From assembly GCA_013360595.1 (NCBI GenBank), contig JABWBJ010000003.1, positions 1-32,929 of the forward strand: a stretch of 32,929 nt of DNA. Reading direction: 5' to 3'. This document shows, piece after piece, positions 5,064 through 30,253 of the stretch. Each line of letters begins with the position of its first letter. Positions within the stretch are counted from its first letter, which is position 1. The notes below the pieces were generated by a model, which was not told the DNA's origin, did not search any database, and saw nothing but the letters and a program-made list of their open reading frames with translations. This stretch comes from Gemmatimonadaceae bacterium. GTDB taxonomy: Bacteria; Gemmatimonadota; Gemmatimonadetes; Gemmatimonadales; Gemmatimonadaceae. Both the position numbers and the translations under genes were made by a program.

Positions 5064-5096
5064 ACGGCCTTGGCGGCTGTGCCAGGGCCGTTTTTT
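5064..5096 (+). terminator. Rho-independent terminator
   Basis: ACGGCC-T-TGGC / loop GGCTGT / GCCA-G-GGCCGT followed directly by a six-T run (5091-5096). An 11-bp stem with one T-G wobble. It ends the transcript of the 431-aa gene. Confidence 0.92.
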
Positions 5097-5176
5097 ACCT
5101 CCTGACGTGAATGCCCGGCGATACGCGGAGAGGCGCGAAGGGGAATGGTCCCCTTCCCGGCGCGAGGGGCATTCCG

Positions 5177-5392: not shown

Positions 5393-5583
5393 CGACGGCC
5401 CCCGAGCCGGTAGAGACCGTTGCCGGGATGGCGCTGGGCATCGCTGTGGCAGAGCATTCGCGCGAGGCCGCCGAGCGCTGGGCGCGGCGCGCGGAACTCC
5501 TGGCCGGCTGGCTTTTCGCAGCGTGGCGCCGGGAGCAGGAGCAGGCTGGGGTGATGGTTGTCCAGGAGCACAACTTGAATTGA
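5389..5583 (+). CDS. Hypothetical helical protein, 64 aa
   Basis: Not recognised. Overlaps the preceding gene by 4 bp, so it is translationally coupled. One long predicted helix (ETVAGMALGIAVAEHSREAA then ERWARRAELLAGWLFAAWRR) with Trp/Leu on one face suggests a membrane-associating or dimerising small protein. No signal sequence. Confidence 0.5.
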   Translation: MTTAPEPVETVAGMALGIAVAEHSREAAERWARRAELLAGWLFAAWRREQEQAGVMVVQEHNLN

Positions 5584-5676
5584 TTCCGGTCGTTCACGGA
5601 ACCCGCCAACCGGCCCGCTGGCCGACCGGAAGGCGGGAAGTCAAGAGGCCAAGGTCAGCGAGGATGAGTGAGACCT

Positions 5677-6297
5677 ATGCACATATTCACGGACGAACCA
5701 CGGGACCTCAGGCTCCTCGATCTGCGCGGTCTGACGCCGCTAAACCCCGAGATGGCCGCGGGAGAACCGGAACTGCTGGCCATGATCGAAGGGCACAACG
5801 ACCGCTGTGGCCGCGCGGCGGCGCGGCTACGGCAACTGGCCGCCGATCGCCGCCGACTCTCCGATTTCGCCGCCTGCGAGCGCATGGGCGGCACAACGCT
5901 GCTGGCCGAGCGGGCGCGTCTGCGCGGCGAGAGCTGGGATGCGCTGTGGGAAGCCCGGCATGCACTCGAGGAGCGCGAGGACATGTTGCAACAGCTCGAG
6001 CATCGGCTGCGGGAGCAGTACGACGAGGCCGTAGGTCACCACGATCAGGCGGTCGAGACCGCAAAGCGGCGCTTGGTGAAGGAGCGCCGCGCGCTCCAAG
6101 CAGTCAATCCGACAAACGCGGAGGGGCACTTTCATGATTTCGTTGCCGCCGACGAGTCCGTTCGCGAGGCGGCGAGGCGACAAAGCGCCGCAGGCCAGGC
6201 CCTGAATGACATCGCCGAGGCGAAGCGCGGCGTCATCGCCGACCGCAGCACCGTCACCACGCGGCAGCGCGAGGTGTTCGCATTGCTGACGCGTTGA
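5677..6297 (+). CDS. Coiled-coil hypothetical protein, 206 aa
   Basis: Not recognised. ATG 5677 (MHIFTDEPRDLRLLDLRG) has GCGAGGATGAG upstream; GTG 5668 is an alternative three codons earlier. After a short non-helical start, residues about 30-205 are almost uninterrupted charged helix (LRQLAADRRRL, ALEEREDMLQQLEHRLREQ, AVETAKRRLVKERRALQ), a strong coiled-coil signature without membrane segments or cysteine motifs. It lies in the same transcript direction as the primase, about 70 bp ahead of the next gene. Confidence 0.6.
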   Translation: MHIFTDEPRDLRLLDLRGLTPLNPEMAAGEPELLAMIEGHNDRCGRAAARLRQLAADRRRLSDFAACERMGGTTLLAERARLRGESWDALWEARHALEEREDMLQQLEHRLREQYDEAVGHHDQAVETAKRRLVKERRALQAVNPTNAEGHFHDFVAADESVREAARRQSAAGQALNDIAEAKRGVIADRSTVTTRQREVFALLTR

Positions 6298-6368
6298 ATC
6301 AGCGCCTGGCTCGACAAGGCATTGGCCGGGGGACATCAACAAAACTGGTACATACACGGGAGGTAGTG

Positions 6369-6797
6369 ATGAAGAGTGGGTATCGCCTACGCAGCCACAC
6401 CGTGGCCATGCCGGCGCCACCAAGCGCGCCGCCGTCGTATGTTCTTTGGAAGGAGCGCAACGGGACGTGGCACGTTGATGGTCCGCATCCGGTCGCTGCA
6501 ATCCTGATCGGGTGCGAGGAACTCTCCGCTCCGGCTCGCCTTCGCGCATCTCAACGACGCACGCCCAGCGGAAAGGAAATCACGCACCGGGAGGTCGACT
6601 TCGAGGACGAGTTCGCGGAACGGCACTTTGAGGGCGCCCACTGGAGATACGTTCCAATTGCCTTCGTACTGCTGCCGGCACACTGCGCGGAGTGGGAAAG
6701 CATCATCGTGCCTCAAGCGGAAATCGCATTCTCCGAAGAGGCCGCAAAGGCCATCGCCGAACGGCGCAATTCTGAGCGCGGAAGGAATCATGGCTGA
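6369..6797 (+). CDS. Hypothetical protein preceding the primase, 142 aa
   Basis: Not recognised. ATG 6369 (MKSGYRLRSHTVAMP) follows a GGGAGG site. The mixed alpha/beta protein has Trp/Tyr-rich segments 'SYVLWKERNGTWHVDGPHPV' and 'RHFEGAHWRYVPIAFVLLP'. It overlaps the primase start by 8 bp, so the two are probably co-translated. It may be a partner of the primase, but no motif proves it. Confidence 0.6.
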   Translation: MKSGYRLRSHTVAMPAPPSAPPSYVLWKERNGTWHVDGPHPVAAILIGCEELSAPARLRASQRRTPSGKEITHREVDFEDEFAERHFEGAHWRYVPIAFVLLPAHCAEWESIIVPQAEIAFSEEAAKAIAERRNSERGRNHG

Positions 6798-9087: not shown

Positions 9088-9300
9088 AAAGTTGCCCCCA
9101 GTTGGACCGGTTGCCAGAGAACTATTCGGGAACTCTTCACCCCCGCGGGGTGAAAAGTTGGAGCGGCGAAAAGGGCAGGAAAATAAAGGAAAAACAACAA
9201 CTCTCTCTAACTATTCTACTTTTCACTCCGGCCCCCTCGCGCCACCCTTTTCCTGCCCGTATGCGCGTGTATGCGAGGGGGGGTGAAAAGTGAAAAGTTG
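9077..9300. repeat. Iteron-like repeat cluster, candidate origin of replication
   Basis: The 18-mer GTGAARAGTGAAAAGTTG occurs at 9077-9094 and 9283-9300 (one base different), each containing two overlapping units GTGAA(A/G)AG. A single unit, GTGAAAAGTTG, lies at 9150-9160. An inverted unit lies at 9218-9226 (ACTTTTCAC), and another inverted variant inside the hairpin at 9131-9141. The area between contains an A-rich tract (about 9178-9200) and a pyrimidine tract (9201-9224), unusual in this GC-rich DNA. Repeats, an AT-rich stretch and the position directly behind a primase-helicase gene are the classical makeup of an iteron-controlled origin; the assignment is inference. It is not a CRISPR array: units are short and spacers irregular. 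Confidence 0.65.
9131..9159. other. Hairpin in the iteron region
   Basis: AACTCTTCACCCC (9131-9143) and GGGGTGAAAAGTT (9147-9159) form a 13-bp stem with one mismatch around CGC. It incorporates two iteron units in opposite orientation. It may act as terminator of the primase gene, as part of the origin, or both. Confidence 0.55.
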
Positions 9301-9319
9301 CGAAAAGGATGGTTTACGC

Positions 9320-9685
9320 ATGGATGCACGGTGCTTCGATTGCCGGTTCTTCTGTCCCGGTGACTACAAGATGGTAGACGACCTGACGGAGCAGGATTGG
9401 GACGAAGGCCTCGAAGGTGAATGTCGCCGGAATCCGCCCTGCGTCGGGCGGTTTCGCGGGGAGGATGAACACCTCCAGTACGACTATGGGCAGTGGCCTC
9501 TCGTCCAAGCCGTCAACTGGTGCGGCGCATTTGAGCCGTGCCGCAGGGCGCTAAGTCTCAACGACGGACTCACGCGCACCCTGGGTCCAGATCGTGTTGT
9601 GGACAGCAAGGTTGCCGATGATCCGAATCCGTCGCCGCGACCTGCCGCGGATCAGCAGGACATCGCCACGACGGAGGAGACGTGA
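9320..9685 (+). CDS. Cysteine-rich small protein, 121 aa
   Basis: ATG 9320 (MDARCFDCRFF) was chosen, with AAAAGGA about 12 bases upstream. GTG 9290 would add ten residues, but its codons coincide with the last iteron. Cysteines are arranged as C-x2-C-x3-C, then 'ECRRNPPC', then 'WCGAFEPC', with 'WPLV' before the last group. I recall small phage and plasmid proteins with this 'C..C / RxPP / WP.V / WCGxF' plan and suspect zinc or iron-sulfur binding; the function is unknown. The last 40 residues are polar and probably disordered. No regulator motif is evident. Confidence 0.65.
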   Translation: MDARCFDCRFFCPGDYKMVDDLTEQDWDEGLEGECRRNPPCVGRFRGEDEHLQYDYGQWPLVQAVNWCGAFEPCRRALSLNDGLTRTLGPDRVVDSKVADDPNPSPRPAADQQDIATTEET

Positions 9686-9820
9686 ACCGCGCCATCTGTG
9701 CCCTTGATGGCATGGGTCCTACCAGGGCCAAGCGGCCGCCGAGGCCCGCGGAACCCACCACAAAACCCATTTGAGTTTATTTGTTGAAGCGCCGCATAGG
9801 TGGATGGGAGACACAAACGC

Positions 9821-10381
9821 ATGGAAACACAAGTAAAAGACCTCCCGATCAACCGCGACCGCAAGTTGACCGCCCCTGCGGCGCTGGACCGCCTGCTGGA
9901 CATGATGAAGCGGTGGTGGGAAGGCGAGAGCTTGGCCGATATTGCCCGCGCCTACGGCATCAGCCGCCAGCGGGTCGGGAGCATTCTGGCCAAGGTCGGC
10001 TGTACCGCCGCCCTTCGGCGCATGACAGACCAAGAGCGGCCCGATTCCAGCCGGCGTGGATGGCGGCACGGCATGGAAAAGGCGCGGAAGGCACTACTCC
10101 ATCCCTTGGCCCACCGCCTCACCGTTCGCCAGCGGGCAGCCCTGGCTTGGCAAGCCCAGAGCCTGGCGCTGCCGGATATCGCCCGGCGGATGCGGGCTAC
10201 CTCGCAGAATGTTCGTGGCCTTCAAGTGGCGGGGCATTGGCGGCTGGAGCGGCTGACCAAGCGGGAGATGCCGAACGACAGCATCGACATCGGGATGATC
10301 GAATGGGGCGAGGTCGCGCGATGGCCTGAAACGAACCCTGACCGGACCAACGCCTCCACAACGGAGGCGTTGGCGAAGTGA
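9821..10381 (+). CDS. Regulator with two sigma-region-4-like HTH motifs, 186 aa
   Basis: ATG 9821 (METQVKDLPINRDRK) was preferred over 9800; GGGAG lies about 11 bases upstream. The first HTH is at about residues 30-60: 'RWWEGESLADIARAYGISRQ' followed by 'RVGSILAKVG'. A second is at about 103-137: 'LTVRQRAALAWQAQSLALPD' followed by 'IARRMRATSQNVRGL'. Both have the sigma-70 region 4/LuxR-like 'I-A-----S---V' spacing, and the second begins with the 'LT-RQR' typical of that fold. This suggests a DNA-binding regulator of the element rather than a full sigma factor, since no region 2 is present. It is convergent with the second HARE-HTH gene, 11 bp apart. Confidence 0.7.
   Translation: METQVKDLPINRDRKLTAPAALDRLLDMMKRWWEGESLADIARAYGISRQRVGSILAKVGCTAALRRMTDQERPDSSRRGWRHGMEKARKALLHPLAHRLTVRQRAALAWQAQSLALPDIARRMRATSQNVRGLQVAGHWRLERLTKREMPNDSIDIGMIEWGEVARWPETNPDRTNASTTEALAK
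10347..10373. terminator. Hairpin between convergent genes
   Basis: CCAACGCCTCC (10347-10357) and GGAGGCGTTGG (10363-10373) form a perfect 11-bp stem with loop acaac, inside the last codons of the two-HTH gene and about 20 bp past the stop of the opposing HARE-HTH gene. There is no T run. The stem shares CAACGCCTC with the hairpin at 3412-3438. Confidence 0.6.
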
Positions 10382-10392
10382 TTGAGACGTCT

Positions 10393-10761
10393 CTAAGTGT
10401 TGAATTGGAACAGCCCGCGGTCAGTCTTCTTGAACCGGGCGGCGCTGCCCTTGTCCCGCGCCTCGCGGAGCATTCCGGCGTACAACGTGGCCCAAGGGGT
10501 CGCGCCTGCGGGGCTCCGCCACAGGCCCCGCTTCGCCAGCGCGGCGATCAGTTCCTGGGCGTGCATGGGCTTACCGGCCTTCTTCAAGACCGTCGCGGCG
10601 GCGTCAAGAGCGCTGACGCGCTTCGGCTTCGTCTCGCCGGCGGGCTTCTTCACCTTGGTCACCGTGGCGCTGGCTTTGGTCTTGGGCGTCGCCGCTTTGG
10701 TTTTGCCGACCGCCGCCTTGGCGGCGGTCTTCTTCGTCTTCGTTTTCTTCTTCGCGCTCAT
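10393..10761 (-). CDS. HARE-HTH protein, second copy, 122 aa
   Basis: ATG 10761 has a strong GCAGGAGG site. Residues 1-45 are a Lys/Ala-rich tail (MSAKKKTKTKKTAAKAAVGK and onward) like those of histone-like nucleoid proteins. Residues about 48-122 are the HARE-HTH winged helix (SALDAAATVLKKAGKPMHAQ ... FKKTDRGLFQF). It is closely similar, also at DNA level, to the last 118 residues of the protein encoded at 2039-2914. The frame stays open upstream of the ATG through the conserved IPFAELALM leader, so a longer product is possible. It is divergent from the serine recombinase, with which it shares a 187-bp promoter region. Confidence 0.82.
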   Translation of the reverse strand: MSAKKKTKTKKTAAKAAVGKTKAATPKTKASATVTKVKKPAGETKPKRVSALDAAATVLKKAGKPMHAQELIAALAKRGLWRSPAGATPWATLYAGMLREARDKGSAARFKKTDRGLFQFNT

Positions 10762-10782
10762 GGTTCGCCTCCTGCGGTACGT

Positions 10783-10802
10783 TTCTGCGGCGTCCACGCG
10801 AC
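10783..10802 (-). promoter_or_regulatory. Leader motif GTCGCGTGGACGC, copy 2
   Basis: 19 of 20 bases match 1992-2011. Its first bases also form the perfect palindrome ACGCGACGTCGCGT with the adjoining sequence. It lies 22 bases before the HARE-HTH ATG. Confidence 0.5.
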
Positions 10803-10818
10803 GTCGCGTTGTCAGCCC

Positions 10819-10869
10819 CATGAGGGCGAGTTCGGCGAACGGGATCAAGCGAATCTTGCCGGAATTCCG
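10819..10869 (-). repeat. Conserved 38-bp leader, copy 2, with GGAATTCC palindrome
   Basis: The minus strand of 10,819-10,856 matches 1425-1462 at 36 of 38 bases. Upstream of it CGGAATTCCG (10,860-10,869) corresponds to the AATTCCG/CGGAATT palindrome at 1403-1418. The peptide reading IRLIPFAELALM is in frame with MSAKKK at 10,761. Being in the divergent intergenic region, it could influence both the HARE-HTH gene and the recombinase. Confidence 0.6.
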
Positions 10870-10948
10870 CAGAAAAATGTGGCCCCAGCGGCCTTGACTT
10901 GGAGGGACCCTTGAGGGAAGGGAGTGGTCAGTGACGGAAGGACGAAAC

Positions 10949-12904
10949 ATGCATGCGAACGCCAAGGTGCCCGCCGTGGCCTACCTGCGAAGGTCAACCG
11001 ACCGGCAGGAACAAAGCATCGGCGACCAGCGGGCCGCCGTTCGTCGCTGGGCCGATGAGCACGGATATGAAATCGCCCGCGAATTCATCGATGATTCAAT
11101 CAGCGGGACTTCGGCGGACGAGCGCCCGGCCTTTCAGAACATGATCGCCGACGCGCAGCGTGGCGAGTTCAAGGCGGTGATCGTCTGGAACTCGGACCGG
11201 TTCTCGCGTGGCGACATCACTGAAACGGAATACCACCGCTACCTTCTTCGCAAGGCCGGCGTGGTGGTGCTGTCGGTCACCGAGGACTTCTTGGGCCGCG
11301 ACGGAATCGACGGCGATGTGCTGCGAACGGTCAGACAATTCCAGAATCGTCAATTCTCGGTTTCGTTGGCGCAGAATACGTTGCGCGGCCAGCTCAGCGC
11401 GGTGATGGCGAAATCGGACCCCGGCCGCGCTCCGCCTTTCGGCTACGACCGCGAGGTCGCTGCGCCAGACGGCTCGGTCATGTTCCGCATCCGCTTCTGT
11501 CCCGGCCGCGTGCGCGAGGTCTACGACAAGGACAGCAAGCTCCAGGCCTGCTACGCCAAGGGGCAATCGCTGAAGAAGCCGGGCAAACAGTGCCGGGCGC
11601 GGCTGGTGCTCTCCGACCCGCAGCGCGTGCAGGTCGTCAAGGACATCTTCCGCATGTGCCTGGACGGCGTGGGCTTCGCCTCCATCGCCGCCGACCTGAA
11701 TGCCCGCGGCATTCCCGCGCCCTGTCAGGACCATTGGAACTTCACGACGGTCAAGGCGATTCTTGAGAACCCGACGTATTGCGGCTGCCTTGTATGGAAC
11801 CGCCGGACCGAGGCGAAGTTCTTCAGGCTCCAGAACGGCCGGACCGAAGAGCGTCGGCGGCAGGCCAGCGAGGCCAAGGTGGTCAAGACGCCGAAGGCGG
11901 ATTGGATCGTCATCCCAGATTCGGTGCCCGCGATCATTCCGAAAGAGGATTGGGAGAAAGTCCAGGTGCTTGTGGCCAAGCGCCGGCGGGCGGTCGGCGG
12001 AGCCGGGCATCGCAATCGCCGCTGGCTGCTGACAGGCGTGATGGTCTGTGGCGACTGCGGCCACAAGTTCTGGGGCGCGCCCTGCCACAAGGGCCGCATC
12101 GAAGGCAGGGCTGCGGTCGTCACCAATTACTACAAGTGCGCCGGCCGAGGCTCACATGGCAAGACCATCTGCGCGACGCCATCGACCCTTCGCGCCGAGC
12201 CGTTGGAATCCTGGGTGCTGGGCAAGCTCCAGAAGATCGTCCTGGCCGACGAGGAGGCGCTTGACGAGGCCATCGAGCTGTTCGTCGAGCAGGCGGCGCG
12301 GAGGGATCACGGCGCCACCGACGCCGACCGGATCGCCCGCGAAATCAAGGAGGTCGGCGATCTGGTGACGGCGCTGACCATGAACATTGACGTGGCGAAC
12401 TTGTCGCTGCTCAACGATCGGCTGACGCAACTGCGGCTTCGCAAGGAATGCCTGGAACGCGAGCTGAACCTGGCCCGGCAGGAAAAGAGTCATCCCAATG
12501 TCGGTACGTTGCGGACGTGGGCGCGAAACCAACTGGCCGGCCTCCACGACGCGATGGCCGGCACGCGCAACGATCGGACGCGCGACGTGATGGGAACATA
12601 CGTGGATCGGATCATCGTCTGGCCATCGCAACGCCGAGGCGAGTTGCGCTTGAACCCCGCCGCCGCGCCGCTCTGGAAACAGCACGACCGCCCCGAAGGA
12701 CGGTCGCGTAATAACCCAATCGGGGCGACAGGACTCGAACCTGCGACCTTCTGCACCCCATGCAGACGCGCTAGCCAGACTGCGCCACGCCCCGGATTCT
12801 CCGCAACTATAGCCCGTGATCGGTCATGTAACAAGCTCGGGGGGCGAGGGACGCTGGATCGTTGCAGCGCGTCGCCGGCGGCGAGCGTCAATCCCGCTCG
12901 CTGA
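10949..12904 (+). CDS. Large serine recombinase (integrase), 3' end fused to host DNA
   Basis: ATG 10949 (MHANAKVPAVAYLRRSTDRQ) is preceded by GGAAGG. Residues about 8-150 are the resolvase domain: Y-L-R-R-S16 gives the catalytic serine, followed by 'DDSISGT' and 'WNSDRFSR'. Then come a recombinase domain (about 215-320, 'GVGFASIAADLNARGIP', 'ILENPTYCG'), a zinc ribbon ('MVCGDCGHKF' to 'KTICATPS', about 360-410) and a coiled coil (about 450-510). The natural C-terminus seems to lie near 'RIIVWPSQRRGELRLNP' (codons to about 12,660). The remaining 75-80 residues translate the tRNA-Pro terminator and the antisense of the tRNA ('GATGLEPATF', a familiar artefact) and have no protein-like character. 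It is likely responsible for integrating and excising this element, with the attachment site at or near its own 3' end. Confidence 0.9.
   Translation: MHANAKVPAVAYLRRSTDRQEQSIGDQRAAVRRWADEHGYEIAREFIDDSISGTSADERPAFQNMIADAQRGEFKAVIVWNSDRFSRGDITETEYHRYLLRKAGVVVLSVTEDFLGRDGIDGDVLRTVRQFQNRQFSVSLAQNTLRGQLSAVMAKSDPGRAPPFGYDREVAAPDGSVMFRIRFCPGRVREVYDKDSKLQACYAKGQSLKKPGKQCRARLVLSDPQRVQVVKDIFRMCLDGVGFASIAADLNARGIPAPCQDHWNFTTVKAILENPTYCGCLVWNRRTEAKFFRLQNGRTEERRRQASEAKVVKTPKADWIVIPDSVPAIIPKEDWEKVQVLVAKRRRAVGGAGHRNRRWLLTGVMVCGDCGHKFWGAPCHKGRIEGRAAVVTNYYKCAGRGSHGKTICATPSTLRAEPLESWVLGKLQKIVLADEEALDEAIELFVEQAARRDHGATDADRIAREIKEVGDLVTALTMNIDVANLSLLNDRLTQLRLRKECLERELNLARQEKSHPNVGTLRTWARNQLAGLHDAMAGTRNDRTRDVMGTYVDRIIVWPSQRRGELRLNPAAAPLWKQHDRPEGRSRNNPIGATGLEPATFCTPCRRASQTAPRPGFSATIARDRSCNKLGGRGTLDRCSASPAASVNPAR
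12685..12706 (-). terminator. Terminator hairpin of tRNA-Pro
   Basis: On the minus strand CGACCGTCC-TTCG-GGGCGGTCG is a 9-bp stem (one wobble) closed by a UUCG tetraloop, 14 bases after the tRNA 3' end. On the plus strand it lies inside the apparent recombinase frame, which argues that host sequence begins left of 12,685. Confidence 0.75.
12720..12794 (-). tRNA. tRNA-Pro (anticodon GGG)
   Basis: The full cloverleaf can be drawn on the minus strand. The acceptor stem CGGGGCG/CGCCCCG has 7 of 7 pairs with discriminator A (12,720). The D arm is GCGC...GCGC. The anticodon stem TCTGC/GCAGA encloses loop ATGGGGT (T33, GGG anticodon, G37). The T arm is GCAGG-TTCGAGT-CCTGT. The C1 start and GGG anticodon identify proline. 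No CCA is encoded. The gene is intact and directly abuts the integrated element. Confidence 0.96.
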
Positions 12905-18818: not shown

Positions 18819-21728
18819 ATGCCCTTCACGCCAACGCCCTCACAGCGCGCCGCCATCGAGGCAGACCTCGGTCCGGCGCTCGTGCTCGCCGGTCCGGGGG
18901 CCGGGAAGACGTTCTGCCTCATCGAACGGATCCGGCACCTGATCGAAGTGAAGCGCATGGATCCCGAACGGATCCACGCCTTCACCTTCACCAACAAGGC
19001 GGCCGAGGAGATCGGGTCGCGCCTCGATGACCTCGGCGAGAAGGCGCATCTCGTCAGGCGGGGGACGATCCATGCCTTCTGCGCCGATCTGCTGCGCCAG
19101 CACGGGCATCACGAAGGGCTCGAGCGGGGCTTCGGAATCGCCGACGAGCACTACCAGCAGTCGGTCCTCTCGCGGCTTGGCCAGCCGGCGCGATTCCACG
19201 CCGCCATCCTCAAGTCGTTCACGCTCCACCGGCTCCGGGGATTCGAGCTGAGCGAGCGCGATGCCCGAACGTACGCCGAGTACGTGCAGCGGCTTGCGCG
19301 CAGGAACATGGCCGACTTCGACATGCTGGTGGTGAAGGCGGCCCACCTGCTGGAGTCCGTGCCCGAGGTCGCGCGTGAGGTACGCTCGCGCTGGGACTGC
19401 ATCCTCGTGGACGAGTTCCAGGATCTGAATCCCCGCCAGTACGAGGTGGTACGGGCGCTGGCCCGGGAGCACCGCAACGTCTTCGCCGTCGGGGACGACG
19501 AACAGTCCATCTTCTCGTGGACCGGCGCCGACCTGACGCTCTTCGCCGCGCTGCAGAACGACTTCGGCATCGTGAGGGCCATCACGCTGCGCGACAACCA
19601 CCGGTGTCCGAGTCAGATCTTCGATCGGGCGCGGGCGCTGGTGCGGCGGAATCCGGCGGGTCTGTGGACGAAGGAGGAGATCGTCGCCACGCACGAGACG
19701 CCGCATCCGGTCCGCGCCCTCAACTTCGGCGACGACCTGCACGAGGCGGACTGGCTCCTCGAGGATCTGCGCGCGGACCGGGAACGGCATGGCCTGCGCT
19801 GGGGCGATTACGCCGTGCTCTACCGCCGGCACGAGATCGGCGATGCGCTGGAGGCAACGCTGATCGGTGCCGGCGTCCCCTGCCGGCTGGCCCAGGGCCG
19901 CGCGGTGGCCGACGATCCGGTCATCGCCTACGCGGTGGCCGCGCTCAAGGTCATTGCCGACCCCGCCGACGACGCGCACCAGGAGGCGTTTCTGCGGGTC
20001 GTCCTGCCGCCCAGCCTGCTCGACCTGCTGCGAACGAAAGTGGAGGCGGGCGTCGACGGGCTCCGCGCGCAGATGGAGGCGCATGCCCGATCACTGCCGC
20101 GGCGCGCGCCCGGCGCGTCGAAGCTGTGGCGCGCGCTGTTCGCCCTGAGGAACCTGGAGTCGCTCGGACGGAAGCACGACGACCTCACCGCCCTGGTGGA
20201 GGAACTGCTGTCGCAGCGCGTGGGGGTGTATCGGACGATGCTGGAGGAGCGGCACGAGGACCTGTCCGATCCGGCGAACCATCCGGAGGTCGTGCAGCTC
20301 GCCGACCGGCTCGGCGCCGCCCTCGACGCGGGGCGGATGGTCTGGGTGGAGCCGATGGCGGGGCTCGAGATCCCGCTGCGGGCCATGCTGCACGGCATCG
20401 GGTTCACGCGATTCGGGGTCGGCCCCTCGCCGCCTGACGACGCCGAGCCGGTGCGCGCCGGTGATGTCCCGACCCTGGGGATCGCGCTCGGCCTGTTCAA
20501 GGTGCTGCAGCTCGTGGCGACCCGGCGCGAGGCGCCCTTCGGCGACTTCGTGGCCGTGGACATCGAAACCACGGGCCGCGACGTGGAGCGGGCCGAGGTC
20601 GTGGACCTGGCGGCGGTGCGCGTGCGGAACGGCCAGGTGGTGGACGAGTGGTCCTCGCTGGTGAAGCCGCGCGTGCCGATCCACGCCGCGGCGGCGGCAG
20701 TCACCGGGATCACGGAGGCGATGGTTGCCGGCAAGCCGCACTTCGAGGACGTGTGGCCGGGCTTTCGAGACTTCTGTGGCGACGACGTCGTGGTGGCCCA
20801 CAACGGGTACCGGTTCGACTTCCCCATCCTCGAGCGGATGAGCGCCCCGCTCGGTGGATACCGGTTCACGACGTACGACACGCTGGTGCTGGCCCGCGAG
20901 CTGCATCCCGGGAGCCGCAAGCTCCACGATCTGGCGGTCCGGTTCGGCGTGGACACCGGGCACGAGCACCGCGCGCTCGACGATTCGCGGGCACTGGCCC
21001 GCGTCTTCCTGCGCCTGGATGCCGAACGCGTGACGCGGTCGCGCAAGACCGCGCTGGCGAACCTGCTGGACCAGCTCGGGATCGCCCTCGCGCTCTGGTC
21101 GGCGCCTGACGAGAGCGCGGAGGCGAAGATGCTGCGGCAGGCGGCCGCGATCTACGCGCTCGGCCGGTACAGCGACGCCCTGGAGCACTACCGGGCGCAG
21201 CGGGAGCTGGCCGGCGACCCCGCGATTCCCACCGCGGACGACCTCATCGAGCGGCTGGGCGGGAAGGGACTGATGGAGCGGTTGCGCGCCGAGAAGACGG
21301 CCGATGAGCGGTATCCACAGGCGATGGCCCGGTTGCGCCGGCTTCTGCAGCGGTGCGAGGCGCCGACGCTCGACGGCCAGGTCCGTGAGTTCCTCGAGCT
21401 GGTGGCGCTCTCGAAGCATGATGGGAGCACGGTGCACCAGGATCGGGTGAGCCTGCTGACGCTGCACTCCACGAAGGGGCTGGAGTTCTCGCGCGTGTAC
21501 ATCGTGGGCGTGGAGGACGCCGAGATCCCCGGCGGGACGCAGCACAAGCCGGCGATGAAGGCCGAGATCGAGGAGGGGCGCCGGCTGCTCTACGTCGGGA
21601 TGACGCGCGCGAAGGACCGCCTGGTGATGACGCGCGCCGCGAAGCGGAACGACCTGCCCACGGGCGGGACGCAGTTCCTGAGCGAGATGGGGCTCACGCC
21701 GGAGCCGGTGACCTCCCGCCGGGCGTGA
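18819..21728 (+). CDS. UvrD-type helicase with an internal DEDDh exonuclease domain, 969 aa
   Basis: ATG 18819 (MPFTPTPSQRAAIEADLGPA) starts just before the Q motif; no strong ribosome site is visible. Helicase motifs: Walker A G25-PGAGK-T31, 'TFTNKAAEEI', DEFQD at 198-202, 'GDDEQSIFSWTGAD' and 'LRDNHRCPSQIF' in the first part; 'LTLHSTKGLEFSRVYI' and 'EEGRRLLYVGMTRAKDRL' near the end. Between them, residues about 575-735 form a DnaQ-like 3'-5' exonuclease with D581/E583 ('DIETTG'), D667 ('YRFDFPIL') and H717/D722 ('HRALDD'), a complete DEDDh set. One chain thus combines unwinding and proofreading-type nuclease activity, suited to repair or end resection. No nuclease subunit of AddAB or RecBCD type is nearby. 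Confidence 0.9.
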   Translation: MPFTPTPSQRAAIEADLGPALVLAGPGAGKTFCLIERIRHLIEVKRMDPERIHAFTFTNKAAEEIGSRLDDLGEKAHLVRRGTIHAFCADLLRQHGHHEGLERGFGIADEHYQQSVLSRLGQPARFHAAILKSFTLHRLRGFELSERDARTYAEYVQRLARRNMADFDMLVVKAAHLLESVPEVAREVRSRWDCILVDEFQDLNPRQYEVVRALAREHRNVFAVGDDEQSIFSWTGADLTLFAALQNDFGIVRAITLRDNHRCPSQIFDRARALVRRNPAGLWTKEEIVATHETPHPVRALNFGDDLHEADWLLEDLRADRERHGLRWGDYAVLYRRHEIGDALEATLIGAGVPCRLAQGRAVADDPVIAYAVAALKVIADPADDAHQEAFLRVVLPPSLLDLLRTKVEAGVDGLRAQMEAHARSLPRRAPGASKLWRALFALRNLESLGRKHDDLTALVEELLSQRVGVYRTMLEERHEDLSDPANHPEVVQLADRLGAALDAGRMVWVEPMAGLEIPLRAMLHGIGFTRFGVGPSPPDDAEPVRAGDVPTLGIALGLFKVLQLVATRREAPFGDFVAVDIETTGRDVERAEVVDLAAVRVRNGQVVDEWSSLVKPRVPIHAAAAAVTGITEAMVAGKPHFEDVWPGFRDFCGDDVVVAHNGYRFDFPILERMSAPLGGYRFTTYDTLVLARELHPGSRKLHDLAVRFGVDTGHEHRALDDSRALARVFLRLDAERVTRSRKTALANLLDQLGIALALWSAPDESAEAKMLRQAAAIYALGRYSDALEHYRAQRELAGDPAIPTADDLIERLGGKGLMERLRAEKTADERYPQAMARLRRLLQRCEAPTLDGQVREFLELVALSKHDGSTVHQDRVSLLTLHSTKGLEFSRVYIVGVEDAEIPGGTQHKPAMKAEIEEGRRLLYVGMTRAKDRLVMTRAAKRNDLPTGGTQFLSEMGLTPEPVTSRRA

Positions 21729-21965: not shown

Positions 21966-23294
21966 TCAGCGACGCTGTATCCGGAAGATCGCCACCGTCT
22001 GAACGTCCAGGCTGTCGCGCTGCACGACGACGACCCGGTCACCGCGGACATCCTCGAGACGGGTGAGCGCCGGCAGCCTCAGCGTGGCGACGGGGGCCCC
22101 GTCGGCTTCGAGAATCGTCCAGCGATCGCCGGGCGTCTGGAGCGCCGTGCCGAGGCGGACCGGCTCGAACCGCTCCGCCCAGAGACGCCCGTCGGCGCCT
22201 GCGAACACCCGGCCGATGGCCGGCCGCTCGTCAGGCAGGATCTCGGGCGCGAACGACTGGTTGAGCGCCGTCCGTGGCCCGGGAGGCACGTTCTGCTGCA
22301 CCAGGAGCCGGTCCAGTTCCGCCTTGAGGCGGGCGATCTCCCCGGGCTCCAGCGGCTCCGACTGCGCCGGCCATCGAATGATGCCAGCCGGCCGGAACGC
22401 CGTGTCGAGGGACGTGATCTCGAAGACCGACCCCGATCCGAAATGGACGCGATCCCGCGAAACGGCAACGAAGGGCCGGTTCGCGAACGGAAGCCGCACG
22501 TCTCCATTCTCGACGAGGCCCGAATACGGACCGTCGAAGCGCGCCGACTCGATGAGCGTTCTGCCGCTCGTGTCCCGCAGGGCAAGCTGCGCCCGCGTGG
22601 GCCAGCGGCGAACGCCCGATCCGGCGGGCACGGAATCCAGCGGTACAAGAGACAGCTGGAACACGACGACGGCGCCGCGCCACAGCCACGCGTCCGCCGG
22701 CCACGAATCGAACGAACCGTCGCCGGCGAGGTTCATGCTCCGAACGAGTCCCGTGTCCGGATGCCAGACCGACAGTCGCCGCTGCCGCGGGTCGAACGTG
22801 GTCAGCGTGTCGCCCGGCCATACCGCGAGGCCGTCGAGTCTGCGGAACTCCCCGGGTCCATCGCCTCGCCGTCCCAGCGTCCGGACCAGCCGGCCACCGG
22901 CGTCAAAGACCAGCAGGCGCTGCGAGCCCGCATCGGCCACGACCAGTCCGCCGTTCGACAGCCACCGGACCGGACCGACCTGCGCGAACGCCGTCGAGTC
23001 GCCGGTCTCGGCGCCGTTCAGGACCAGCTCGGCTGTCGGCGCCAGCGTCCAGATCCGAAGCGAGGACGGCGGCAGGCCGATGGTCGCGATCCGCACTCCT
23101 GCCGAGTCGACGACCCTGACTGATGCGCCACCCGTCGTGTCGCTCGTGCAGCCGCCCGGCACGGCGAGGATCGCCGCGATGGCGATGGTCCTGAGGCTGA
23201 TCCAGTCCTCGCGCCACGCCCTCGGTGGCGATGACGGACACCGATCCCGGACTCCCCCCGTGCCCGCCGTGCCCCGCGTGCCCCCCGCGCTCAA
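21966..23294 (-). CDS. 6-bladed beta-propeller lipoprotein, hypothetical
   Basis: The frame opens with TTG 23294, and no better start is available before the signal sequence, so the true start is uncertain and may lie nearer 'SLRTIAIAAILAVPGGC' (lipobox cysteine at about residue 49). The mature part begins 'VRVVDSAGVRIATIGLP', an opening I associate with Gemmatimonadota propeller proteins. It continues with NHL-like blades ('GGLVVADAGSQRLLVFDAGG', 'RRGDGPGEFRRLDGLAVWPG', 'TTFDPRQRRLSVWHP'). The role is unknown; it is probably anchored to a membrane and exposed to the periplasm. It starts within 4 bp of the DUF72 stop, in the same direction. Confidence 0.7.
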   Translation of the reverse strand: MSAGGTRGTAGTGGVRDRCPSSPPRAWREDWISLRTIAIAAILAVPGGCTSDTTGGASVRVVDSAGVRIATIGLPPSSLRIWTLAPTAELVLNGAETGDSTAFAQVGPVRWLSNGGLVVADAGSQRLLVFDAGGRLVRTLGRRGDGPGEFRRLDGLAVWPGDTLTTFDPRQRRLSVWHPDTGLVRSMNLAGDGSFDSWPADAWLWRGAVVVFQLSLVPLDSVPAGSGVRRWPTRAQLALRDTSGRTLIESARFDGPYSGLVENGDVRLPFANRPFVAVSRDRVHFGSGSVFEITSLDTAFRPAGIIRWPAQSEPLEPGEIARLKAELDRLLVQQNVPPGPRTALNQSFAPEILPDERPAIGRVFAGADGRLWAERFEPVRLGTALQTPGDRWTILEADGAPVATLRLPALTRLEDVRGDRVVVVQRDSLDVQTVAIFRIQRR

Positions 23295-23998
23295 TGGTCC
23301 GCCAGGAGCCGGAGGAACGCATCGACGGCTGGCGGGCCCGAGCCGACGCCCTCATCGTGCTTGAAGTAGACATACGCCTCCGACCACGCCTGCTCCCGGA
23401 TGCGCGCCGCCCAGTCGCCTAACGCCCTGGCGTCATAGTCGAACCGGTGCAGACGGACGTACCCCCAGGACGCGCTCGCAACGGGCGGGGTGGCGAAGTC
23501 CTCCTGGTCGATGATCGTGAGCGCCACGTCCTTCGCCCGCAGCGCCTCGACCACGTCCTCCTCGAACCAGCTGGAGTGGCGGAACTCCACGGTGAACTTC
23601 CGGCCGTCCGGGAGCAGTTCGAGGAAGGCCTTCAACCGGTCGAGGTCCTTCTTCAGGTTCGGCGGCAGCTGGAAGAGCACCGGCCCGAGCTTCGCCCCCA
23701 GCGCCGCGGTGTTCTTCAGCAGGTAGCCGACCAGGTCGGCGGACTCGGGCTTGAGCCGCGCGTGGTGGGTGATTCGCTGGCTCGCCTTGAGCGCGAAGGT
23801 GAACCCGTCCGGCACCTGCGACGCCCACTCGAGGATCACGTTCTCGCGCGGCATCCGGTAGAACGTGTTGTTGATCTCCACCGTCGGGTACCGCGTGGCG
23901 TAGAAGCCGAGCATCCCGTCGGGCTTGATGTCCTCGGGATAGAACGACCCCTTCCATTCCTTGAACGCGTAGCCGCTGGTGCCGGCCCGGATCCTCAC
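23291..23998 (-). CDS. DUF72 (YecE-like) protein, 235 aa
   Basis: GTG 23998 overlaps the Ku stop codon (GTGA), so the gene is translationally coupled to ku. The TIM-barrel family is recognised by 'RAGTSGYAFKEWKGSFYP' at the N-terminus, 'PTVEINNTFYRMP', 'FALKASQRITH', 'LFQLPPNLKKD', 'FTVEFRHSSWF' and 'YVYFKHD'. The biochemical role of DUF72 is not established; it often accompanies DNA repair genes. Coupling with Ku suggests a function in the same repair process, which is inference. Confidence 0.93.
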   Translation of the reverse strand: MRIRAGTSGYAFKEWKGSFYPEDIKPDGMLGFYATRYPTVEINNTFYRMPRENVILEWASQVPDGFTFALKASQRITHHARLKPESADLVGYLLKNTAALGAKLGPVLFQLPPNLKKDLDRLKAFLELLPDGRKFTVEFRHSSWFEEDVVEALRAKDVALTIIDQEDFATPPVASASWGYVRLHRFDYDARALGDWAARIREQAWSEAYVYFKHDEGVGSGPPAVDAFLRLLADH

Positions 23999-24801
23999 GA
24001 GGCCTTCCGTTCGGCTCCTTCCTCCGCGCCGCGCGCCAGGCTGGCCTTGAGGGCTTCCATGAGGTCGATGATCTTGCCGCCCCCGTCCTGCGCCGGCTCG
24101 GTCGTGATCTCGTGGCCGTCCACCTTGCCTTGGATGGCCTCGAGAACGCGGTCGCGCACCGTGTCCTTGTACTTGGCGGGCTCGAACGTGTCGGTCGCAC
24201 CCTGCTCGATGAGCTGCTTGGCCAGCTTGAGCTCGGTGTCCTTGACGTCGCCTTCGGGGATCGGCACCTCGGCGGGCGGCTTCATCTCGTCGGCGTAGTG
24301 GAGCTGCTCCATCACGATCACGCCGTCGCGCGGCCGCAGGAGGACCAGGTACTGCTGCCCGCGTGAGGCGAACTGCCCGAGCGCGGCGCGCCCGGTCTCC
24401 TGGAGCGCCTTGGCGAGAAGGCGATAGGCCCGGTCGCCGCCCTTGTCGGGGCCGAGGTAGTACACCTTCTCCAGGTACTCCCGGTCCACCTCGGCCAGGG
24501 GGACGAACTCGGCGATGTCGATCGTGCCGGTCGCCTTCTCCTCGAGCGCCTTCAGTTCGTCAGGCGTGAAGGTGACGTACTGGTCCTTGGCGAACTCGTA
24601 CCCCTTCACCATGTCCTCGCGGGGGACGATCTCGTTGTTGTCCTTCGGGCAGACGTACTGCTGTTTGACGCGCGTGCCGCACTTCCTGTGCAGCATGTTG
24701 AACGAGATCTGCGCGCGGGACTCGGCGGACGAGTAGATGTGCACCGGGACCGAGACGAGCCCGAAGGAGATGGTGGCGGTGCCGGTTGAGCGGGCGGGCA
24801 T
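23995..24801 (-). CDS. ku: Ku protein of bacterial non-homologous end joining, 268 aa
   Basis: ATG 24801 (MPARSTGTATISFGLVSVPV) is typical for the family start. 'RSTGTATISFGLVSVPVHIYSS', 'HRKCGTRVKQQYVCPKDN', 'EFVPLAEVDREYLEKVYYLGPDK', 'LRPRDGVIVMEQLHY' and 'KYKDTVRDRVLEAI' cover the complete homodimeric Ku core plus a short C-terminal tail ending in Ala/Lys/Glu residues. Ku binds double-strand ends and recruits LigD, encoded 2.8 kb away on the other strand. The length is normal (260-300). Its 5' region contains a short tandem repeat. Confidence 0.97.
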   Translation of the reverse strand: MPARSTGTATISFGLVSVPVHIYSSAESRAQISFNMLHRKCGTRVKQQYVCPKDNNEIVPREDMVKGYEFAKDQYVTFTPDELKALEEKATGTIDIAEFVPLAEVDREYLEKVYYLGPDKGGDRAYRLLAKALQETGRAALGQFASRGQQYLVLLRPRDGVIVMEQLHYADEMKPPAEVPIPEGDVKDTELKLAKQLIEQGATDTFEPAKYKDTVRDRVLEAIQGKVDGHEITTEPAQDGGGKIIDLMEALKASLARGAEEGAERKAS

Positions 24802-26901: not shown

Positions 26902-27450
26902 TCAGGGCCGCAGGACCGACGCCAGCTCGACGACGAGCGGCTCGGTGGCGCCCGGCCCGATCCATGAGACCCGCTCGGTCTCCACGCGCGGAAAGGGCGC
27001 CTCCGGCGACCAGACTTCCACCAGGCAGCCCTCCGGATCAACCACCCAGTACTCGTCGGCGCCGACGTCCTGGAACAGGCGGCGCTTGGTGAATCGATCC
27101 TGTCTCGCGGTCGATGGACTCAGGATCTCGATCGCGAGCAGCAGGCGACCGACGGCACTCCATTGGGTGAACGACGCGTCCTCGGGCCTGAGCACGAAGA
27201 TGTCCGGCTGCACCAGGACGTCGTCGCGGCCGAAGGAGAGATCCGCCGGTGAGTACAGCACCAGGGGCCCGGGATTCGCTGCGAGGTAGTTGAAGATCGC
27301 AGCGAAGAGGCGCCCGCCAACAATCTGGTGCCGTGGCCGGGGTGACGGGCTCACCAGCAGTTCCCCGTAGACGGTCTCGTACCGGTTCCCGTCGTCGGGG
27401 AGGTTCCGGACCATCTCCGCGGTGTAGAACTGGCGCGCGTGCATGTGCAT
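26902..27450 (-). CDS. Uma2 family (DUF820) PD-(D/E)XK-type nuclease, 182 aa
   Basis: ATG 27450 (MHMHARQFYTAEMVRNLPDD); ATG 27444 is equally possible. The core follows the Uma2 pattern: 'YETVYGELLVSPSPRPRHQI', 'VLVQPDIFVL' (catalytic Asp), 'LLLAIEILSPSTARQD' (catalytic Glu before the LSPS motif), then 'KRRLFQDVGADEYWVVDPEG'. Family function is predicted endonuclease; biological role unknown, many paralogues occur in cyanobacteria, Chloroflexi and Gemmatimonadota. It is divergent from ligD across a 150-bp interval and 20 bp from the next minus-strand gene. Confidence 0.9.
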   Translation of the reverse strand: MHMHARQFYTAEMVRNLPDDGNRYETVYGELLVSPSPRPRHQIVGGRLFAAIFNYLAANPGPLVLYSPADLSFGRDDVLVQPDIFVLRPEDASFTQWSAVGRLLLAIEILSPSTARQDRFTKRRLFQDVGADEYWVVDPEGCLVEVWSPEAPFPRVETERVSWIGPGATEPLVVELASVLRP

Positions 27451-27601
27451 ACGTTGGCCTCGGCGAGTACGCGTGAGCAAGGGAGCATCCCGCAACGTGC
27501 ACCAGCCGCCGCCGAGTTCCTTCATCCTGGCAACGCACCCCCGGTCACCGGAACGCAACCGCCGTCCTCGCGGTAACCCGTCCGTCCTCGCACTTTGCAG
27601 C

Positions 27602-30253
27602 ATGAGCGCGGATGACGCTACCTCGCCGCCAACCCCCCCCGCACCGGACTCGCTGAGCACCTACCGCGCCAAGCGGTCGGCCGACACGTCCCCGGAGCCG
27701 GTCGGTCACGTCTCTCCCGTGCCCGGGCGCCTGTTCGTCGTGCACAAGCACGCGGCCACCCGGCTGCACTGGGACCTGCGGATCGAGATGGACGGCGTGC
27801 TGCGCTCGTGGGCCGTCCCCAGAGGCCCTTCGTATGACCCCGCCGACAAGCGCCTGGCGGTCCGCGTGGAGGACCATCCGCTGGAATACGGCGACTTCGA
27901 AGGGGTCATCCCCGAGGGGAACTACGGCGCCGGCGGCATCATCGTCTGGGATCGCGGCGAGTGGGTGCCGCTGGAAGACTGGCGCGCCGGTCTCGAGAAG
28001 GGGAAGCTCCTCTTCGAGCTCAAGGGGTACAAGCTCCACGGCCGCTGGACGCTCGTGAAGATCAGGAAGGCCGAGAAGGAGTGGCTTCTCATCAAGGAGC
28101 GCGACGCCCATGTGCGCGTCCCCGGCGACGTCTTCCCCCAGGAGTCGGTGCTCTCCGGCCTCACGGTGGATGAGGTCCGCTCCGGCGAGCGGCGCAGTTC
28201 ACAGGTCCGCCAGGCGCTGGAGGCGGCGGGTGCCGCGCGGGCGCACCTGGAGATCGCGACCACCGGGCTGATGCTGGCCGAGTCGCGCGATGCGGCATTC
28301 ACGAGGGACGACTGGATCTTCGAGCTCAAGCTCGACGGCTACCGCCTGCTGGCCGCGAAACGCGCCGGGGACGCGACGCTCATGACGCGGAACGGGAACG
28401 ACTACTCCGAGGTCTTCCCGGAAGTCGCACGCGCCATCAGGGCGATCCCGCTCGAGGAGTTCATCATCGACGGCGAGGTCGTGGTCCTCGACGACCAGGG
28501 GAAGCCGAGCTTCTCGCGCCTCCAGCAGCGCGGCGCACTGCATAACGCGCACGAGATCCGTCGCATGGCGGTGGAGCTCCCGTCCACCTTCTACGCGTTC
28601 GATCTGCTGGCGGCGGAAGGTTTCGATGCCCGGGCGCTTCCACTCCTCACGCGCAAGGAGATCCTCAGGCTGGCGGTCCCGTCGGTGGGCGCCGTGCGGT
28701 ACCTGGACCACATCGAGGCCCAGGGCGAGGAGTTCCTGCGGCGGGTGACGGCGCTGGGGCTTGAGGGGATCATCGCCAAGAAGGCGGATTCCGCGTACCG
28801 GGCCGGCCGCACCCCGGCCTGGCTCAAGATCAAGGCCGAACGGACGGCCGACTTCGCCATCGTGGGGTTCACCGAACCGAAGGGGAGCCGCGTGGGCTTC
28901 GGCGCCCTGCAACTGGCCGACCTGGTGGGCGGCCGGCTCTGCTACGCCGGGCGCGCCGGCACCGGCTTCACCGAGCAGATGCTGGAAGAATGGCACGAAC
29001 GGTTGCTGGCGGATGTCAGGGCCGAGCCGCCGTGCTTTGGACCCGTCACGGCGCCTGACGCGGAACCGCTGCCGTCGGAGCGGATTCCCGAGGCGCAGAC
29101 GACCACCTGGGTGCAGCCCAAGTACGTCTGCGAGGTGCGGTACACGGAGTGGACCCCGGACGGGTTGCTGCGACATCCGGCGTTCCTGCGGATGCGGGAC
29201 GACAAGCGGGTGGACGAAGTCGAACGGCAGTGGGCGAGCGCCGAGCGCCAGGCGTCGAGCGCCGACGATGCCGTGCCGGGTCACGAGTCACGAGTCACGA
29301 GCCCCGAGCCCGCCGCGTCCCCGCCCCATTCCGCATTCCCCGTTCCCGATGCCCGTCGTGAGGTCCAGCTCTCGAACCTCACCAAGGTCTTCTGGAAGGA
29401 AGAACGCTACACCAAGGGAGACCTGATCGAGTACTACCGGTCGATCGCCCCCTGGCTCCTGCCATACCTGCGGAACCGGCCGCTGGTGCTGACGCGATTC
29501 CCGGACGGGATCGACGGAAAATCGTTCTACCAGAAGGACGCGCCCGAGTTCGCGCCGGACTGGATTCGCACCGTGCCGATCTGGAGCAACGACACGCAGC
29601 GGGACATCCGGTACTTCGTCTGCGACGACGTCGATGCGCTCGTCTACATCGCCAACCTGGGGACCATCCCGCTGCATGTCTGGCAGAGCCGCATCGGGTC
29701 GCTGGAACTGCCGGACTGGTGCGTGATCGATCTCGACCCGAAGGACGCGACCTTCGCCGACGTCATCCGCTGCGCCCGGGTCCTCCACCGCCTCTGCGAG
29801 GAGATCGGCCTGCCCAACTACGTGAAGACCACGGGAAAGACGGGGCTCCACATCATGATCCCCCTGGGACGCCAGTGCACGTACGAACAGTCGCGCCAGA
29901 TCGGGGAGCTGCTCGCCCGGCTCGTCATCCGTGAACTGGGCGCAGTCGCCACCATCATGCGGACGATCAACAAGCGGGGCGAGAAGGTCTACATCGACTA
30001 TCTCCAGAACCGGCACGGCCAGTTGATCGTGGCGCCGTTCAGCGTCCGGCCGCTTCCGGGGGCGACGGTCTCGATGCCGCTGACCTGGGAGGAGGTCGAC
30101 GATGGACTGGACCCGAGGCACTTCACGATCCGGAACGCAGTGGACCGGATGGAACGCCTGGGAACCGATCCGGTCGCTCCGGTATTGGAAGCAAGGCCGG
30201 ACCTGGGGAGCACGCTCGCGCGGCTCTCCGCGATGTTCGCCCGGGACCCATGA
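27602..30253 (+). CDS. ligD: Multifunctional ATP-dependent DNA ligase D, 883 aa
   Basis: ATG 27602 (MSADDATSPPTPPAPDSLST) begins a short disordered lead. Domain order is phosphoesterase - ligase - polymerase. Residues about 35-180: 3'-phosphoesterase ('HKHAATRLHWDLRIEMDG', 'EGNYGAGGIIVWDRG'). About 220-530: ATP-dependent ligase with nucleophile K243 in 'ELKLDGYRL', 'IIDGEVVVLDD', 'EGIIAKKADSAYRAGR', 'WLKIKAERTADF', and OB fold. About 600-880: AEP-type polymerase with D710/D712 in 'VIDLDPKD' and 'KTTGKTGLHIMIPLGR'. This order is that of the Pseudomonas enzyme, not the mycobacterial one. It fills gaps and seals ends held by Ku. The linker at about residues 560-585 contains a tandem repeat. Confidence 0.97.
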   Translation: MSADDATSPPTPPAPDSLSTYRAKRSADTSPEPVGHVSPVPGRLFVVHKHAATRLHWDLRIEMDGVLRSWAVPRGPSYDPADKRLAVRVEDHPLEYGDFEGVIPEGNYGAGGIIVWDRGEWVPLEDWRAGLEKGKLLFELKGYKLHGRWTLVKIRKAEKEWLLIKERDAHVRVPGDVFPQESVLSGLTVDEVRSGERRSSQVRQALEAAGAARAHLEIATTGLMLAESRDAAFTRDDWIFELKLDGYRLLAAKRAGDATLMTRNGNDYSEVFPEVARAIRAIPLEEFIIDGEVVVLDDQGKPSFSRLQQRGALHNAHEIRRMAVELPSTFYAFDLLAAEGFDARALPLLTRKEILRLAVPSVGAVRYLDHIEAQGEEFLRRVTALGLEGIIAKKADSAYRAGRTPAWLKIKAERTADFAIVGFTEPKGSRVGFGALQLADLVGGRLCYAGRAGTGFTEQMLEEWHERLLADVRAEPPCFGPVTAPDAEPLPSERIPEAQTTTWVQPKYVCEVRYTEWTPDGLLRHPAFLRMRDDKRVDEVERQWASAERQASSADDAVPGHESRVTSPEPAASPPHSAFPVPDARREVQLSNLTKVFWKEERYTKGDLIEYYRSIAPWLLPYLRNRPLVLTRFPDGIDGKSFYQKDAPEFAPDWIRTVPIWSNDTQRDIRYFVCDDVDALVYIANLGTIPLHVWQSRIGSLELPDWCVIDLDPKDATFADVIRCARVLHRLCEEIGLPNYVKTTGKTGLHIMIPLGRQCTYEQSRQIGELLARLVIRELGAVATIMRTINKRGEKVYIDYLQNRHGQLIVAPFSVRPLPGATVSMPLTWEEVDDGLDPRHFTIRNAVDRMERLGTDPVAPVLEARPDLGSTLARLSAMFARDP
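29281..29301 (+). repeat. Heptamer repeat TCACGAG x3 in the ligD linker
   Basis: Three exact copies of TCACGAG in the codons for the ligase-polymerase linker ('GHESRVTSPEP'), followed by a stretch with near-repeats of CCGCATTCCC/CCGTTCCCG type up to about 29,350. Seven bases is not a multiple of three, so any change in copy number would shift the frame. Confidence 0.75.

Follow-up and report, generated by a model that had tools for sequence, protein, structure and literature searches.

A UvrD-family helicase with a DEDDh exonuclease predicted inside its 2B arm, encoded repeatedly beside ku and ligD in Gemmatimonadota

AddAB, AdnAB and RecBCD are multi-subunit helicase-nucleases with a PDDEXK nuclease domain, and human WRN unites a helicase and an exonuclease of the DnaQ superfamily in one chain, its motor being of the RecQ/superfamily 2 (SF2) type and its nuclease an N-terminal DEDDy domain. 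Mycobacterial UvrD1 is not known to carry a nuclease domain. UvrD1 is described as a Ku partner that unwinds 3'-tailed duplexes in a Ku-dependent manner (PMC3656841), and its tie to Ku is also reported in PMC3102665. ExoDinG is portrayed as a DEDDh exonuclease fused at the N-terminus to an SF2 DinG helicase (PMC11981726), and subdomain 2B of UvrD-family helicases as a regulatory, autoinhibitory arm whose GIG motif contacts the duplex (PMC13238157). Bacterial non-homologous end joining (NHEJ) is usually presented as a system of Ku and LigD, and it is treated as an open question which further proteins clean the ends (PMC3656841, PMC12658125); recruitment of end-cleaning proteins has been suggested for Bacillus subtilis Ku (PMC3656841). 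Here we analyse gene P0001, which lies in a stretch of 32,929 nucleotides from a Gemmatimonadaceae bacterium (contig JABWBJ010000003.1; the whole stretch is referred to as the window) and for which an earlier note, made from the sequence alone, had pointed out a DEDDh exonuclease nested in a UvrD-type helicase near genes for Ku and LigD.

Architecture, conservation and predicted structure of P0001

The frame of P0001 is open from 18819 to 21728 on the plus strand, with a predicted ATG start at 18819 and a stop codon ending at 21728. Pfam profiles recognize UvrD-helicase at residues 6-249 (E 2.8e-64), RNase_T at residues 578-730 (E 3.3e-26; the entire profile, positions 1-164 of 164) and UvrD_C with its best stretch at 832-939 (E 9e-33), and none for PDDEXK matches at E<=1. 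The gene and its parts are as follows (aa, amino acids; pLDDT, predicted local distance difference test; 38/38, identical in all 38 aligned family members, window included):

18819..21728, plus strand: UvrD-DEDDh fusion gene P0001, 969 aa (open frame and Pfam)
18819..20003, plus strand: helicase motor, residues 1-395, comprising 1A, 1B and the first part of 2A (PF00580, PcrA alignment, pLDDT)
18891..18911, plus strand: Walker A, G25-T31 including K30 (G25, K30, T31 38/38)
19410..19424, plus strand: Walker B / DEFQD, residues 198-202 (D198, E199 38/38)
20004..20537, plus strand: remodelled 2B part 1, residues 396-573 (no Pfam match at E<=1; low to moderate model confidence)
20538..21053, plus strand: predicted DEDDh 3'-5' exonuclease domain, residues 574-745 (full RNase_T profile, models, Pol III epsilon match)
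20559..20567, plus strand: DEDDh motif I, D581-x-E583 (38/38)
20817..20819, plus strand: DEDDh motif II, D667 (38/38)
20967..20984, plus strand: DEDDh motif III, H717-x4-D722 (38/38)
21054..21434, plus strand: remodelled 2B part 2, residues 746-872 (helical in models; pLDDT <50 over 821-873)
21435..21725, plus strand: residues 873-969, remainder of 2A, bearing motifs V and VI (UvrD_C; G887, R930 38/38)

When P0001 is aligned with solved PcrA, homology runs from residue 8 to about 395-476 and returns at about 785-944, and the insert is therefore located in subdomain 2B, which is itself inserted in 2A. The exonuclease had been placed between two helicase halves; motor sequence does indeed flank it on both sides, but it does not simply separate the motor domains, being situated inside 2B. 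The stretch in place of 2B comprises about 477 residues, compared with roughly 165 for 2B in PcrA, and the 2B region is about 300 residues larger than that of UvrD, PcrA or Rep. The pattern G[IVLA]G, standing for the GIG duplex contact of 2B and sought at residues 380-425, was matched in just 1/38 members; another, looser GIG pattern matched 12/25 viral UvrDs. In NCBIfam, P0001 scores 308 bits with the PcrA equivalog, 296 with Rep and 289 with UvrD and thus falls far short of the respective cut-offs of 911, 951 and 1144, and dinG_rel matches it solely over the exonuclease stretch 577-734. A small alpha/beta element precedes the exonuclease at residues 489-572 (window 20283-20534); it looks alike in both structural models described below (pLDDT block means about 52-83) and found no Pfam match in the full-protein search.

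All five DEDDh residues (D581, E583, D667, H717 and D722) are identical in 38/38 aligned members, and so are the nine checked motor residues G25, K30, T31, D198, E199, Q229, R262, G887 and R930, in keeping with the prior claims of intact helicase motifs and of a complete DnaQ-like exonuclease. Together with the open frame and the Pfam matches, these invariant sites show that the fusion is neither a product of chance nor a frame artefact. Mean identity to 36 other members is highest in the last part of the motor (0.65), followed by the exonuclease (0.56), the first part of the motor (0.54) and the two parts of 2B (0.41 and 0.48). An antisense reading was considered and rejected: the Pfam matches are on the strand of P0001, and the long open frames opposite the gene appear to reflect high GC content.

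Our main AlphaFold2 model was built on alignment A4 (45 rows), which sets ordinary UvrD 2B against the exonuclease columns; alignments A5, A6 and A7, in which helicase fragments were misplaced, were excluded from folding. The model has a mean pLDDT of 79.4, with block means of 78-97 for residues 1-360, 50-74 for 361-400 and 79-98 for 581-740 and lower values over 2B. In a second model (alignment A8) the motor is poor, with a mean pLDDT of 55, and the exonuclease agrees with that of the main model. The best solved structural matches of the motor are 4c30, 1uaa, 3pjr and 2is4, with Z 43.0 and 5.5 A over 548 residues for Deinococcus radiodurans UvrD and Z 42.8 and 2.2 A over 448 residues for Escherichia coli Rep; Foldseek concurs on the motor, and the model also matches AdnB, AddA and RecB structures. 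Residues 574-735 superimpose on Pol III epsilon (2gui) with Z 23.9 and 1.7 A over 161 residues. The DEDDh fold is thus confidently predicted, but its placement against the motor is unreliable because the predicted template modelling score (pTM) is 0.59, and we make no claim on the direction in which the nuclease site points. It is confirmed, at the level of sequence and model, that P0001 is predicted to join a UvrD/PcrA-type superfamily 1A (SF1A) motor and a DnaQ-superfamily DEDDh exonuclease in one chain, both active sites being conserved.

Distribution and association with Ku and LigD

Counting the window's genome, the fusion is present in 24/60 close relatives (E<=1e-100) and in 97/395 genomes of the phylum (E<=1e-80). 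The matches span the exonuclease in 94 of these 97; those in genomes G049, G050 and G059 are partial, do not span it and were still counted. All 97 genomes belong to families f1, f2, f3 and f9, and the same 395-genome search listed no fusion match in f4-f8, f10 and f11. One match carries a name: a protein of 78% identity from a metagenome-assembled genome of Gemmatimonadaceae, a same-genus relative with the same gene as G001/L006. In a tree of 52 members rooted with PcrA, whose branch is very long, f1 and f9 each form one clade (support 99 and 100) and f9 is placed among f2 rows at support <=94. The gene tree follows the host family, and we read it as indicating one old fusion that was probably followed by many losses and perhaps one transfer. 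A role of the exonuclease as sole proofreader, hinted at by the incomplete genome of the window, was rejected: a second RNase_T match is found in 19/20 fusion genomes examined, and the fusion nuclease therefore need not be the replicative proofreader.

Presence of the fusion goes along with presence of Ku. Among the 395 genomes, 86 contain both, 11 the fusion only, 147 Ku only and 151 neither, and Ku occurs in 35/38 fusion genera vs 63/100 others (p 6e-4, hand count). For the order (229 genomes) the corresponding numbers are 81, 11, 55 and 82 (p 8e-14), i.e., Ku in 81/92 fusion genomes vs 55/137 others (p 0.011 upon shuffling within genera), these and all other co-occurrence tests reported here accounting for the genome tree only in part. 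Family f1 alone yields p 5e-12 and f2 plus f3 alone p 0.04. When the order is restricted to genomes at least 95% complete, Ku is present in 37/42 genomes with and 22/63 without the fusion (p 4e-8) and, by genus majority, in 21/21 fusion genera vs 13/22 others (p 0.0014).

The two genes are also linked physically. The earlier note had located Ku and LigD 3-9 kb from the fusion, close to what we find in the window, where the downstream distances are about 2.3 kb for Ku and about 5.7-8.5 kb for LigD:

23291..23998, minus strand: DUF72 gene (PF01904, E 1.1e-58), sharing 4 bases with the end of ku
23995..24801, minus strand: ku gene, convergent with the fusion gene (PF02735, E 4.1e-50)
27443..30253, plus strand: ligD gene with phosphoesterase, ligase and primase-polymerase domains (coordinates of the open frame, whose actual start may be internal; PF13298, PF01068, PF04679, PF21686)

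This proximity recurs in 16 genera of two families, f1 and f2. The linkage count is based on 79 of the 86 genomes that contain both fusion and Ku; not included are the genome of the window and six others whose fusion matches are partial or split. Ku resides within 10 kb of the fusion in 25 of them, 24 times downstream and convergent; two of the 25 (G135 and G366) rely on fragmentary Ku matches. By our estimate, chance would lead to about 0.4 linked genomes, given a span of 20 kb in genomes of about 3.8 Mb and 79 trials. In the same 79 genomes, Ku is found within 30 kb in 28, further away on the same contig in 5 and on another contig in 46.

We furthermore compared 41 neighbourhoods, the window and 40 fetched ones. 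The first set of 20 represents 20/23 other fusion matches among close relatives, with three contig-edge or partial ones excluded, and was not chosen by Ku; in the second set of 20, seven were chosen since Ku had been seen on the contig (G129, G146, G174, G332, G374, G368 and G321, the last with Ku about 15 kb from the fusion). Ku and LigD are encoded near the fusion in 16/41 neighbourhoods, 15 of which contain DUF72 as well; relative to the fusion, all 16 have Ku in the opposite and LigD in the same orientation. The set picked regardless of Ku shows Ku and LigD in this layout in 8/20 cases. Ku, DUF72 and LigD are the most recurrent fusion neighbours identified. Clustering of frames yielded, judged by eye and by locus sets, the fusion, LigD, Ku (with overlapping frames) and kinase paralogues as the larger groups, groups of up to about six loci being partly identified. 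The remaining neighbours in the window recur less, with a peroxiredoxin in 2/41, the open reading frame at 30279 in 3/41 and three others in the window only.

A few further observations concern the surroundings. DUF72 accompanies Ku in many relatives, be the fusion present or absent. Several genomes have two to four Ku matches (e.g., three in G016 and four in G295), and some Ku-LigD pairs are divergent in type (L271, L272, L279, L283 and L285). The region 1997-12904 of the window, left of the repair genes, is possibly a mobile island; it encodes a large serine recombinase along with a HARE-HTH and a Prim-Pol/DUF3987 protein.

Proposed role and alternative explanations

With moderate confidence we propose that the protein is a single-chain helicase-exonuclease preparing double-strand-break ends for joining by Ku and LigD, its activity and its contact with Ku being putative. 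Architecture, invariant active sites, predicted fold, gene linkage, co-occurrence and the precedents of UvrD1 and WRN taken together make a Ku-associated role in trimming 3' ends the best supported one; polarity, coupling of unwinding to digestion, Ku contact and the role in NHEJ are what we infer for the fusion. Motors of the UvrD type travel along a single strand in the 3'-5' direction, and DEDDh enzymes shorten a strand 3'-5', starting at its 3' end, so that the natural substrate of both in one chain would be the 3' end of the tracked strand. In this scheme, Ku would load or activate the enzyme at a DNA end, as reported for mycobacterial UvrD1, and the motor would open the end or strip proteins from it. 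The nuclease, seated where 2B normally restrains the helicase, would trim the 3' end of the strand tracked by the motor, leaving an end that would be fillable and ligatable for the polymerase and ligase of LigD. By convergence, the fusion would work like human WRN.

Somewhat more tentatively, it is possible that in some Gemmatimonadota the fusion is a dedicated end-processing enzyme of NHEJ and constitutes its third core component next to Ku and LigD, that it arose once by insertion of a DEDDh domain in the autoinhibitory 2B arm of a UvrD, by which the nuclease would have become part of the regulatory arm, and that it converged on the helicase-exonuclease-Ku combination of WRN.

Several observations weigh against a role in end joining. 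Eleven of the 97 fusion genomes are without detectable Ku, and the fusion is therefore not strictly Ku-dependent; in genus g19, the fusion is present in 3 and Ku in 0/15 members. Conversely, 147 Ku genomes do without the fusion. Among 20 Ku neighbourhoods taken from genomes that lack it, 18 also encode LigD and 8 DUF72, which shows that the Ku cluster exists independently of the fusion. When a genus of the order is scored as positive if any member is, Ku is found in 31/34 vs 24/34 genera, with just p 0.06, and f2 and f3 taken alone reach just the p 0.04 given above. Ku on another contig in 46/79 genomes means that these carry no linkage information, in f9, the four genomes that consist of one contig have the two genes at a great distance from each other, and the linkage may largely be one inherited arrangement. 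Human WRN is listed among the proteins that bind the vWA domain of Ku80, a domain that bacterial Ku is described as lacking (PMC12658125), and any contact between fusion and Ku would therefore differ from that of WRN.

Among the alternatives, a general repair excision enzyme fares best, for example a one-chain counterpart of UvrD plus ExoX or ExoI acting in mismatch repair or at stalled forks, with the proximity of Ku being incidental. UvrD and DEDDh exonucleases cooperate in mismatch repair, and the 11 fusion genomes without detectable Ku would be accommodated easily. Still, the patchy presence in 97/395 genomes and the association with Ku, including the convergent synteny, render this explanation unlikely.

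A stand-in for AddAB or RecBCD, degrading or resecting broken ends for recombination or DNA clearance in lineages without AddAB, appears more doubtful still. It draws on the rarity of strong PDDEXK_1 matches (E<=1e-18, a cut-off chosen after the table was seen) in fusion genomes: they are present in 3/92 fusion genomes of the order vs 28/137 others (p 1e-4; within-genus shuffle p 0.006), in 0/43 vs 20/98 genomes of f1 (p 5e-4) and in 1/42 vs 13/63 genomes at least 95% complete (p 0.007). At a looser limit of E<=1e-3, PF12705 matches 18/97 fusion genomes and 216/298 others. The exclusion does not reach significance in f2 plus f3 (p 0.055) or at genus level (p 0.45; p 0.24 for genomes at least 95% complete), and 109/229 genomes of the order contain neither fusion nor strong PDDEXK. 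In contrast to the fusion, strong PDDEXK shows no association with Ku in the order (20/31 vs 116/198, p 0.56). Seven strong PDDEXK genomes were checked, and the match corresponds to AddA- and/or AddB-like proteins in five (G030, G090, G212, G242 and G359), all below the equivalog cut-offs; the matches in G022, a genome without fusion whose frame matched no NCBIfam model, and G251 are not AddAB. A separate AddB model found no match in the two genomes searched. Four of the 97 fusion genomes are exceptions with strong PDDEXK (G251, G359, G175 and G277), and G359 has an AddB-like protein. In addition, a 3'-5' nuclease acting on the tracked strand would remove the very 3' tail that RecA needs. In G251, locus L181:5030-7807 specifies another helicase-nuclease, consisting of a UvrD motor and a Cas4-like C-terminal stretch.

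An anti-phage defence helicase-nuclease is highly improbable, for although P0001 matches PADLOC profiles of GajB-type UvrD helicases and of a CRISPR-associated DEDDh, and genes for a recombinase and a Prim-Pol protein are found on its left side in the window, the profile matches are expected from shared helicase and nuclease families, no defence partner is among the recurrent neighbours identified (defence profiles were not run on the neighbourhoods), and the gene tree follows the host family with f1 as one clade.

Occurrence elsewhere and comparison with known systems

Our searches of phages, plasmids and viral contigs revealed no such fusion within the scope given below, and other bacterial phyla were hardly covered: our scan of genome contigs gave a single locus, a same-genus relative. 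No plasmid or phage record had one place covering 80% of P0001 (best 30 and 15 matches, respectively). With the exonuclease alone, no match labelled UvrD appeared among the matches listed for phages (60 of 147, including DinG-type helicases) and plasmids (40 of 350), many of which are unannotated. On viral contigs, the exonuclease profile matched no frame of at least 250 aa on the match strand in the best 80 of 94 loci retrieved with the family alignment, and no helicase half was detected in any frame of at least 100 aa in L133, L134 and the best 80 of 167 loci that the exonuclease alignment retrieved; the exonuclease of the window alone retrieved two loci. Among the open-licence PMC papers listed by our literature searches, none reports a UvrD with an internal DEDDh domain as judged by title or abstract opening. 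Viral structural matches in BFVD named 3'-5' helicase or helicase/exonuclease (A0A6J5QNL6_3 and A0A3G4ZXM9) are possibly independent fusions. The viral UvrD helicases L069 and L096 carry a long insert interrupting motif III that is intein-like by eye, and similarly split profile matches occur in viral loci L092, L097-L099, L110, L120 and L121.

P0001 offers a concrete, purifiable candidate for an NHEJ end-processing enzyme that is repeatedly encoded beside ku and ligD, and the placement of a nuclease in the 2B arm bears on how 2B controls unwinding. With UvrD, PcrA and Rep of SF1A the fusion shares the checked motor motifs and the 1A/1B/2A fold; it differs by an enlarged 2B that hosts the nuclease and by the near absence of the GIG-like pattern (1/38), and its scores place it outside those equivalogs. 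Mycobacterial UvrD1 and the fusion are both UvrD-family proteins with a tie to Ku, that of the fusion being one of gene linkage and co-occurrence. WRN likewise joins helicase and exonuclease, but the motor of the fusion is UvrD-type SF1A instead of RecQ and its nuclease is an internal DEDDh domain. ExoDinG also pairs DEDDh with a helicase, whereas the fusion has a UvrD-type motor and carries its nuclease internally. AddAB, AdnAB and RecBCD resemble it in combining a UvrD-like motor with a nuclease, yet the fusion is devoid of a PDDEXK match. Judged by its sequence, the fusion is a variant within the UvrD-family helicase-nucleases, set apart from PcrA/Rep/UvrD, AddAB, ExoDinG and WRN.

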